NCBI RefSeq assembly: GCF_000442515.1
Contig: NZ_AQPH01000014.1
Location: forward strand, 1-62,663
Direction of reading: 5' to 3'
Length of the DNA: 62,663 bases
Source: Magnetospirillum fulvum MGU-K5
GTDB lineage: Bacteria > Pseudomonadota > Alphaproteobacteria > Rhodospirillales > Magnetospirillaceae
The notes beneath the pieces are model-generated. The model searched no databases. It worked only from the letters and a program-made list of their open reading frames with translations, and had not been told where the DNA came from. Position numbers and translations under genes: made by a program. Each line of letters opens with the position of its first letter. Position 1 is the stretch's first letter. Shown here in pieces: positions 3,139 through 10,385 of this stretch.

Positions 3139-3605
3139 AGCGTTTCCTCGGTGCCGTGGGCGCTGTGATCCTGGGCATGGCCGCGTTGCCCGCCTTGGCG
3201 GGCGAGATCGAGATCGGCAATGCTACCCTGCGGCCTCCGGTGGTGGCGGGGGGGAATGGAGCGGCTTTTTTCACGATCACCAATCACGGCCCGGCTGACC
3301 GTCTGATCGCTGCTGCTGCCACCGCTGCCCGCTCGGTCGAGTTGCACACCCATATCCGCGACGGAGACGTGCTGCGGATGCGCAAGGTCGATGCGATTGC
3401 GGTGCCCGCGCAGGGGCAGGCCGAGTTGAAGCCGGGCGGCGACCATGTGATGCTGTTCGGACTGGACCCGGCGGCGACCGGTCCCGGCGCCCATGTGCCA
3501 CTGACCCTGACCTTCGAACGGGCGGGAGATATCCAGATCGAGGTTCCGGTCGCGGCTTTGCCTGCGGCGGCTTCCGGGCATCATGGAGCGCATGGTGATC
3601 AATAA
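3135..3605 (+). CDS. Periplasmic copper chaperone PCuAC-like protein
   Basis: 156 residues beginning with a clear Sec signal peptide (MKRFLGAVGAVILGMAALPALA). The mature part has the PCuAC/DUF461 copper site: histidines at H71/H73, a following RMRKV methionine, and GGDHVMLFGL near the end. Such proteins bind Cu(I) and pass it to the CuA or CuB centre of cytochrome oxidase together with Sco. A Sco gene overlaps the 3' end, which supports this role. The start at 3135 has AGGAGAG just upstream and overlaps the previous stop. The tail GHHGAHGD may add metal ligands. Confidence 0.9.
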   Translation: MKRFLGAVGAVILGMAALPALAGEIEIGNATLRPPVVAGGNGAAFFTITNHGPADRLIAAAATAARSVELHTHIRDGDVLRMRKVDAIAVPAQGQAELKPGGDHVMLFGLDPAATGPGAHVPLTLTFERAGDIQIEVPVAALPAAASGHHGAHGDQ

Positions 3606-4206
3606 CACGGTTAAGGCCGCGGGCCTGATCGCCGTTCTGGCCGTCTTGCTGATCCTGGTGGCGGCGCTCAATCCCGGTTTGTCCGAACGGATCAGCCAGG
3701 GGTTGGCGCTGGTCACATCGCCCCGGCTTGATACCGGGTTCACCCTGACCGATCCGACCGGAAAGACCGTTACCGACCGCGATTATCGTGGTCGGTATAT
3801 GCTAGTCTTTTTCGGCTATACGTTCTGCCCCGACGTCTGTCCGACCACTTTGACCGTTCTGGCCGGAGCGCTCGACCATCTCGACGCGGCGACCGCCGCC
3901 AAGATCGTGCCGGTTTTCGTTTCGCTCGATCCCGAGCGCGACAGTCCGGCGGTGATGGGGCAGTACGTCGCCGCCTTCAGCCCCGCGATCGTCGGCCTGA
4001 CCGGCAGTGCCGATGCGATCGCCCAGGTCAAGAAAAGCTATCGGGTCTATTCCGCCAAGGTCGAAGGCAGCGCCCCCGATCTCTACACCATCGACCATTC
4101 GGCGTTGCTGTATCTGATCGGCCCCGATGGGCGCTTTCGTGCCACCATCGATCCCGGTCATTCCGCCGCGGGTCTGGCGGCGGAACTTTCCCGCGCGGTG
4201 CAATAG
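3583..4206 (+). CDS. SCO1/SenC family copper-thioredoxin protein
   Basis: 207 residues: an N-terminal membrane anchor (AAGLIAVLAVLLILVAAL) and a periplasmic thioredoxin fold. The copper ligands of the family are visible: C82 and C86 in FCPDVC and H172 in IDHSALLYL. Sco proteins deliver or reduce copper for the CuA site of cytochrome c oxidase. The reading frame starts inside the PCuAC gene (23-bp overlap), so the two are co-expressed. The first ATG is used; a start a few codons later (ATG of MVINN) is possible. No oxidase genes are in the window. Confidence 0.92.
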   Translation: MERMVINNTVKAAGLIAVLAVLLILVAALNPGLSERISQGLALVTSPRLDTGFTLTDPTGKTVTDRDYRGRYMLVFFGYTFCPDVCPTTLTVLAGALDHLDAATAAKIVPVFVSLDPERDSPAVMGQYVAAFSPAIVGLTGSADAIAQVKKSYRVYSAKVEGSAPDLYTIDHSALLYLIGPDGRFRATIDPGHSAAGLAAELSRAVQ

Positions 4207-8589: not shown

Positions 8590-8937
8590 TTAGAAGCACT
8601 CTTCCTCAAGCTTCTTCAACGCCTCCATCGCCACGTCATCGTCATGGTCCTCGAACAGTTCGACCATGTAATAGACGTGGGAGTGGAGCAACAGCAGCTT
8701 GTCGGTCGTCGCGGTCGCGCTGCTTTCGGCCAGTGCCAGCCGCTGACGGAAGCGGTCCCACAGGGCGTTATTCTTCGCCGGGTCGTCGATGTGGCGATAG
8801 AGATGGCCCAGCACCACCTCCATGTTGCCGTCGAAATCAATGCCGCGGAAGCTGATATAGCGATCGGGGTTGGCGGCGGACTCGTCCGCGGACAGAGAGA
8901 GCGAAGCCGGGGAAGACGTCATGGACGGTACCTTCAT
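8590..8937 (-). CDS. cowN: N2-fixation sustaining protein CowN
   Basis: 115 residues, acidic, no signal or membrane segment. The core [44 protein letters not shown] and C-terminal KLEEECF match what I recall of CowN, a small protein that lets Rhodospirillum rubrum and Rhodobacter fix N2 in the presence of CO by protecting nitrogenase. The upstream same-strand gene encodes an RcoM-like CO sensor, which fits. A second ATG at 8922 has AAGG eight bases ahead and may be the true start, giving 110 residues. No nitrogenase genes are in the window. Confidence 0.88.
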
Positions 8938-9025
8938 GCCAGGAGAAGCCGAACCGTAAGGCTTCGCTCAGGGTGACATTGCCCGGCCTGAGCGGACAAG
9001 TCCTTGCGCGTGAACCGTTCGATAT

Positions 9026-9056
9026 CTGCACGAACGACACTGAAGCTGCACGGACG
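9026..9056 (-). promoter_or_regulatory. Direct repeat, candidate LytTR (RcoM) binding site upstream of cowN
   Basis: CTGCACGAACG at 9026-9036 recurs as CTGCACGGACG at 9046-9056: 10 of 11 bases identical, with a period of exactly 20 bp. Read on the minus strand, each copy (GTCGTTCGT and GCCGTCCGT) fits a degenerate LytTR-type half-site with G-T at its centre. LytTR proteins bind paired direct repeats on one DNA face. The pair lies between the rcoM-like stop and the cowN start, about 90-130 bp upstream of cowN. Binding is inference. Confidence 0.5.
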
Positions 9057-9063
9057 GCGGCGA

Positions 9064-9846
9064 TCACACCGCCAACAGACGCCGCATCAGGTCGATTTTG
9101 TCTCGGCTGACCGGGATCAGAGTGGAATCCGGGTCGGCCAACCGCAGATGCAGGCGGCCCTGGTCCCGTTCGGCGGCGAGGACGTGGCGGATATTGACGA
9201 GGTGGCGGCGATGGACCCGAACGAAGGTCAGCGGATCGAGCCTGCGTTCAAGATCGGCCAGCGGACGCGGGCAGAACGCGGTGAAGGACAGCGTTTTCGC
9301 TTCGGCATAATGACCCTGGGCAGTCAGGCAGGCGACCTGATCGACATCGATCAACGTGGTAACGCCCCCCTTGCCGCGCATCAGCGGCAGTTTGAGCAGG
9401 GGGCCGAGGCCGTCTTCGCCCGTGTCGCCCATCTGAAGCTCGCCCTGGGCATGAAACATCATGCAATAGCCGATATTGGCGGGGGCGGGGCCGGTATGCA
9501 GCCGGGTCACCTTCGCCACCAGACTCCCCATCGGAGTCGTCACCAGCAACGAAGCGACTCCATCGGCCGAATCGCGGGCGCAATCGATCAGCCAGCCGAC
9601 CTTGGCCCGCGCCCCCTCGGGGTGGAGGGACAGGATATCGACCCCGTAAAGCGGTGTCGTGCTTTCGCGGCCCAACAACAATTGCCGGGCCAGCGGATTG
9701 ACCGAGCGAATCTTGCGCGCCGCATCAAGGATCACCACCCCCACCGGGGTCCGTTGCAGCCGGTATTCGAACGAGCCGCCATCGGCCGCACCAGCGGCCA
9801 TGAACGAAGGGGCGCGGTGGGGATGGGATTTAGATTCCTCACTCAT
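9064..9846 (-). CDS. rcoM: RcoM-like CO-sensing regulator (haem PAS + LytTR)
   Basis: 260 residues from ATG 9846. PAS domain at about 25-135 (FEYRLQRTPVGVVILDAARKIRSVN); LytTR DNA-binding domain at about 160-260 (VDQVACLTAQGHYAE, FVRVHRRHLVNI, IPVSRDKI). H75 in LSLHPEGAR and M106 in TTPMGSL sit where RcoM of Burkholderia xenovorans has its haem ligands (His74 and Met104, from memory). RcoM is a single-component activator that binds CO at haem. The next gene downstream on the strand is cowN, the expected kind of target. The start overlaps the FUSC gene stop (ATGA). Confidence 0.82.
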   Translation of the reverse strand: MSEESKSHPHRAPSFMAAGAADGGSFEYRLQRTPVGVVILDAARKIRSVNPLARQLLLGRESTTPLYGVDILSLHPEGARAKVGWLIDCARDSADGVASLLVTTPMGSLVAKVTRLHTGPAPANIGYCMMFHAQGELQMGDTGEDGLGPLLKLPLMRGKGGVTTLIDVDQVACLTAQGHYAEAKTLSFTAFCPRPLADLERRLDPLTFVRVHRRHLVNIRHVLAAERDQGRLHLRLADPDSTLIPVSRDKIDLMRRLLAV

Positions 9847-10385
9847 CGCGCCTGATGTCTCCGCCGCCAGAGACGCGCGGATCCCGCCCAGGTCAGGGCC
9901 ACCAACAGCGCCATCGCCGACCCCAGACAGGATTCGAGGAACCGCAAGCTGGCATTGCTGACGGGATGCAGGTCGGGATTGATCACGGTCAGGATCGCGA
10001 TCACCGTCACCGTGATCGCCGACAGTCGGCCACCGTCGGTCAATTGGAGCAGGGCACCGGCTCCGGCAGCCAGCCCCGCCGCAACGGTAAGGCCCAAGAG
10101 GCTGAACGGCAGGAAAGAGAGATAGAGGGCGGCGATCACTGCGCCGACCAGGGTACCCCAGACCCGCAGCGTGGCGGCGACCCTGGTGCCGGGCAGATCG
10201 TCTTGCAGCGAGGCCAGCCCGGAAACGGACGCCCACATTGCCCCGAACAAGGCGGAGTCGGGATGGATCAGGCCAGTGAAATAAATCCCGCCGCTATAGG
10301 ACAGCAGCACGACGGTAAACGCCTTGATCGCCCGGCTGAGGGCGAGCGAGCGGCGGATCGAATCGAGACTGAGGATGCTCTTCAT
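9843..10385 (-). CDS. FUSC / aromatic acid exporter-like membrane protein
   Basis: 180 residues from ATG 10385. About six hydrophobic segments with the FUSC/ArAE-type pattern: LSYSGGIYFTGLIHPDSALFGAMWASVSGLASLQDD and the loop LPGTRVAATLRVWGTLVGAVIAALYL. It is half the length of full FUSC transporters, so it would need to dimerise or have another role. The stop overlaps the ATG of the RcoM-like gene, so the two are co-translated; whether it belongs functionally to the CO response is unknown. A longer start upstream would add a non-hydrophobic tail and is less likely. Confidence 0.75.
   Translation of the reverse strand: MKSILSLDSIRRSLALSRAIKAFTVVLLSYSGGIYFTGLIHPDSALFGAMWASVSGLASLQDDLPGTRVAATLRVWGTLVGAVIAALYLSFLPFSLLGLTVAAGLAAGAGALLQLTDGGRLSAITVTVIAILTVINPDLHPVSNASLRFLESCLGSAMALLVALTWAGSARLWRRRHQAR

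Follow-up and report, generated by a model that had tools for sequence, protein, structure and literature searches.

A predicted RcoM-type switch of a known kind for cowN in Magnetospirillum fulvum MGU-K5, with an altered haem pocket

Among the closest known counterparts of the regulator considered here is RcoM-1 of Paraburkholderia (Burkholderia) xenovorans, a PAS domain followed by a LytTR domain. His74 is its proximal haem ligand, and Met104 is its CO-replaceable ligand according to the title of one paper; RcoM and Met104 are also both named in PMC9670170. According to PMC11347149, the RcoM1 site consists of three TTCNNGCA repeats with a spacing of 12-13 bp, and the same source places CooA in the CRP/FNR superfamily. 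CowN of Gluconacetobacter diazotrophicus is stated to protect nitrogenase against CO (PMC8047169). The cooA-cowN clusters described for this species and for Rubrivivax gelatinosus resemble the present locus in that a CO sensor gene stands beside cowN, but CooA is described there as a CO sensor of another kind that recognizes another DNA site. In Rhodospirillum rubrum, rcoM adjoins cowN, as stated in PMC4257681 with reference to Kerby and Roberts 2011. The pairing of the regulator with cowN is therefore already known and not new (PMC4257681). The original prediction had set R. rubrum apart as a species in which CooA governs cowN, with RcoM control as an alternative wiring, and this contrast fails as it was worded.

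The window, a 62,663-nucleotide stretch of the M. fulvum MGU-K5 genome, carries a FUSC_2 gene, a regulator gene and cowN in this order of transcription on the minus strand (Table 1). The regulator and cowN are separated by 126 bp. An ATG at 8922 has, as read from the sequence, a better-looking ribosome-binding site than the start of the cowN open reading frame. The cowN product matched both family models above the cut-off, PF20543 with an E value of 4e-33 and 114 bits (cut-off 27) and NF033689 with 110 bits (cut-off 48). The C-terminus of the regulator matched LytTR (PF04397) above the cut-off with an E value of 4e-15. HMM matches in the PAS region were weak and below the Pfam cut-off, and the PAS fold was recognized from an AlphaFold2 model (mean pLDDT 83.7, pTM 0.48), for which the window protein was aligned with 36 locus proteins. 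In Foldseek, this model matched LytTR structures and several PAS domains, some of which bind haem (EcDOS, FixL and Aer2) while others contain none. The match to EcDOS (1s66; E 6.7e-5) is a loose one because its rmsd was 7.3. No solved RcoM structure was found with a working version of the RcoM-1 sequence or the alignment profile. An N-terminal PAS domain and a C-terminal LytTR domain thus lie in one short protein, the layout of RcoM, and the predicted order of a PAS-LytTR regulator followed by cowN on the same strand was borne out by the family models for LytTR and CowN and by the modelled fold for PAS.

Table 1. Positions of the genes and of the candidate control elements in the window
Feature	Position	Strand	Basis or remark
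FUSC_2 membrane protein gene	9843..10385	-	4-bp ATGA overlap with regulator start
PAS-LytTR regulator (RcoM-like), 260 aa	9064..9846	-	PAS ~25-135, LytTR 163-258
Candidate RcoM operator, three direct repeats 12 bp apart	9007..9054	-	match to published RcoM operator
Operator repeat 1, TCCGTGCA	9054-9047	-	RcoM-type repeat
Operator repeat 2, TTCGTGCA	9034-9027	-	RcoM-type repeat
Operator repeat 3, TTCACGCG	9014-9007	-	RcoM-type repeat
TTGTCC, possible -35 element	8994..8999	-	TTG at fixed distance from third repeat
cowN	8590..8937	-	PF20543 and NF033689 matches; ORF start 8937

A scan of named genomes with a CowN alignment gave 125 confirmed stretches, of which the 80 most similar to the window CowN were compared; this choice favours relatives of the window, and the loci are not independent of each other. 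The closest named loci among these 80 by CowN similarity were those of M. molischianum and M. fulvum. A window-like regulator was found upstream of cowN in 49 of the 80 loci, within 1 kb in 48 of them, so the survey of rcoM-cowN adjacency proposed with the original prediction came out in its favour. A CooA-like gene took the upstream place in seven loci, and neither gene was found in 24, for three of which less than 1 kb of upstream DNA was examined. In seven Pleomorphomonas loci (L073-L075, L077, L081, L085 and L096), cowN had no regulator, CooA-like gene or significant operator in the upstream DNA examined. Within the family of M. fulvum, cowN occurred in 29 of 55 genomes and the regulator lay upstream in 24 of these 29, two of the five misses coming from loci with only 207 and 638 upstream bases. 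In the order outside the family, the regulator was present at six of 11 loci examined, at one of them only in part, and three further cowN genomes stood outside this count. The figures were two of three loci in the class and none of five in the phylum, where one locus had a CooA-like gene. The link between regulator and cowN is weaker in the more distant sets. The cowN gene itself is rare, occurring in 33 of 248 genomes of the order, six of 385 of the class (five over the cut-off) and eight of 397 of the phylum, in sets that overlap.

The original prediction also counted the FUSC gene overlapping the regulator as a part of the module. This was rejected, as FUSC accompanies the pair at this place in only two of the 80 best-ranked named loci, those of M. 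molischianum and M. fulvum. It is probably incidental and outside the module.

The region between the regulator and cowN contains a candidate operator of three TTCNNGCA-type repeats, with a spacing within the 12-13 bp of the RcoM-1 operator. Its score of 16 out of 18 is the best on either strand of the window and was reached by none of 500 shuffles, the maximum of which was 14. Over the whole genome, the cowN site is one of two with at most one mismatch at 12-bp spacing. A genome-wide regulon was rejected, with 22 sites against nine in the reversed control (12-bp spacing only, at most two mismatches). With the patterns used, no CooA, NifA or sigma-54 motif was found in the 426 bp upstream of the window cowN. 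The TTG after the third repeat recurs at a fixed distance, and each of its bases is shared by 25 of the 32 non-redundant regions compared.

The same repeats were sought at the other loci, between the two genes (up to 350 bp) where the regulator was linked and in 350 bp or the available upstream DNA elsewhere, with significance set at p ≤ 0.05 by 60 shuffles per locus. Of the 48 linked loci, 44 had a significant operator ahead of cowN; 20 of the 48 fall within L078-L102, a range that is nearly all Azospirillum. In contrast, it was found in none of seven CooA-linked loci and in three of 25 others, or three of 32 non-linked loci (Fisher p 3e-14, from related loci). The four linked loci lacking a significant operator were L106, L107, L115 and L129. 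Scores of at least 13 were reached by 40 of the 48 linked loci versus 11 of the 960 control segments that were taken from these loci, and scores of at least 15 by 27 of 48 versus none of 960. One of the three positive cases among the 25 others is a Formivibrio sp. MAG (L128), where neither regulator type is linked and a weakly significant operator-like triplet upstream of cowN (score 14, p ~0.02) may be a chance occurrence.

The two further positive cases bear on which gene the repeats serve. In Azospirillum sp. TSH64 (L079), the operator keeps its place near cowN, with the regulator at a distance of 1.7 kb. In Pararhodospirillum oryzae (L067), the operator stands upstream of cowN with no linked regulator, and a full-length regulator is encoded elsewhere in the genome (E 5e-88). 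This search for unlinked regulators covered six of the 24 loci where neither gene had been found upstream, and P. oryzae was the one positive genome; the five other cowN genomes, which lack a significant operator, gave no full-length regulator, only partial, weak or absent matches. Since the site lies 10 bp past the stop codon of the regulator, the repeats might be imagined to autoregulate that gene or to serve another one, with cowN merely adjoining. However, the site follows the regulator gene and precedes cowN, and it stays with cowN in both of these genomes, which makes such a role very improbable. Control of cowN is the reading we prefer for the repeats.

The haem-ligand positions were compared by alignment with the working version of the RcoM-1 sequence, the best plasmid match of which, a Caballeronia plasmid protein, was 82.6% identical; two plasmid RcoMs (L025, L026) carry the same residues as this sequence at the ligand columns. 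The window regulator is only 27% identical to RcoM-1 in this alignment (67 of 245 aligned residues). According to the original prediction, which itself called for an alignment at His74 and Met104, H75 and M106 occupy the ligand positions of RcoM. The first half of this statement was upheld, since H75 aligns with His74 and a His is found in this column in all 46 named relatives aligned. The second half was not. M106 aligns with Asp110 of RcoM-1, the Met104 column is occupied by Leu100, and the likeness of the numbers 106 and 104 is a coincidence of counting; M106 was rejected as the Met104 equivalent. The protein therefore has the proximal His of RcoM and lacks its CO-replaceable Met. Among the 46 named relatives, the column holds Met in 32 and Leu in 14, and we filed the window regulator as RcoM-like and Met104-less because the Leu is shared in this way. 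These 46 were drawn from 49 named regulators, leaving out L063, which has no PAS domain, and L108 and L113, which dropped out during ORF extraction; inspected by eye, each of these two has the His and a Met in the 104 column. At L063 (Azospirillum doebereinerae, ~3550-3867), a LytTR regulator devoid of PAS adjoins cowN. The reading frame upstream of it resembles one for a TatA-type protein.

In a tree calculated without the ligand columns, the window protein fell into a clade of 12 rows (support 96/91) comprising the window, M. molischianum, M. fulvum, Azorhizobium, Xanthobacter and Hyphomicrobium. This regulator tree requires at least four changes at Met104. A Met at the M106 column was present in 11 of the 12 rows of this Met104-less clade versus 10 of 67 other rows, a number that includes four M. 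molischianum and M. fulvum copies (L008, L009, L032, L038) and becomes six of 63 without them. Outside the linked loci, the unlinked regulator of P. oryzae (L067, L172) likewise carries Leu in the 104 column and Met in the M106 column. The enrichment in the clade, together with the presence of both Mets in relatives such as L068 and L109 among those named, would fit M106 or another Met serving as a new sixth ligand, so that the classical ligand switch operated from a new place. In the AlphaFold2 model, however, the strand 97-104 contains L100, and M106 falls in the turn that follows, probably far from the iron, and for this reason we think that M106 is not the iron ligand. Moreover, the Hyphomicrobium protein (L061) has neither Met104 nor a Met at the M106 column. 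A relocated Met ligand is thus improbable.

Instead, the replacement of Met104 suggests that a ferrous haem in the window regulator would probably be five-coordinate and would bind CO without displacing a Met. A haem of this kind could also be FixL-like and sense O2, NO or redox, so that the regulator would control cowN while nitrogen-fixing or oxygen conditions set its expression more than CO does. This idea draws support from the Leu in place of Met104, which 14 of the 46 named relatives have as well, and from the fold matches to the O2 sensors EcDOS, FixL and Aer2. Against it, the relatives that bear Met104 have the same target and operator, CowN is stated to work against CO (PMC8047169), and the fold matches extend to PAS domains that hold no haem. 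We regard a different signal as improbable and retain CO as the likely one. More tentatively, and somewhat short of an even chance in our estimation, the cowN-linked Met104-less clade (M. fulvum and its kin, Xanthobacter, Azorhizobium and Hyphomicrobium) may have dropped the Met-off/CO-on switch for a five-coordinate or differently ligated haem of altered affinity or gas choice, with operator and target kept.

The genome setting was examined for what the switch might serve. Three nifH matches over the cut-off were found in the M. fulvum MGU-K5 genome. A further nifH match there (G000:C54:17510-18312) is split across two frames, possibly by a sequencing error or as a broken copy. In the family, nifH exceeded the cut-off in 23 of the 29 cowN genomes, and the matches in the other six were partial, split, just below the cut-off or only weak; judged by nifH alone, CowN occurs here in nitrogen fixers. 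No CooS passed the cut-off in the M. fulvum genome, where the single match had 20 bits against 478. CoxL gave no match there, although no control genome passed the CoxL cut-off either. The regulator also differs from RcoM-1 in its neighbour, which is cowN instead of CO-oxidation (cox) genes. No CooA-like protein above 24% identity was found, the best match (E 7e-7) being probably a generic relative, whereas CooA is stated to be present along with RcoM in R. rubrum (PMC4257681, PMC4703632). With nifH present, no CooS over the cut-off, no CoxL match and no close CooA, the switch probably serves nitrogenase protection, and these search results also make it likely that the regulator is dedicated to cowN. 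In a quick tree of 102 columns, grouping of the CowN of the window group with nine loci of Magnetospirillum and kin was rejected (AU p 0.004), and a joint group with a Xanthobacter-Azospirillum set withstood the test (p 0.42). Because this CowN tree agrees with the regulator tree, the two genes have probably been exchanged horizontally as a pair.

Taken together, the pair can with good confidence be proposed as a local switch that protects nitrogenase in response to CO, in which an RcoM-like regulator would activate cowN. The regulator would bind haem through H75, and CO on the ferrous haem would activate the LytTR domain. The activated domain would then bind the three repeats and recruit RNA polymerase to a putative promoter just downstream. 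This would switch cowN on, activation being assumed rather than repression, and CowN would allow nitrogenase to work in CO. Of the earlier proposal that CO activates RcoM and so turns on cowN, the RcoM-type control appears, at the level of sequence, well supported by adjacency and the conserved operator, but the Met claimed as a ligand does not occupy the Met104 column. Overall, the locus reads as an RcoM-type cowN switch that is known in kind and has an altered haem pocket.

The candidate operator is directly testable, and the natural Met104-to-Leu sensors offer a probe of whether CO sensing needs the Met switch. Since the genome gave no CooS over the cut-off and no match to CoxL, CO would matter to the cell solely as a poison of nitrogenase. 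The findings suggest that many diazotrophs may guard nitrogenase from CO by RcoM-type control of cowN.
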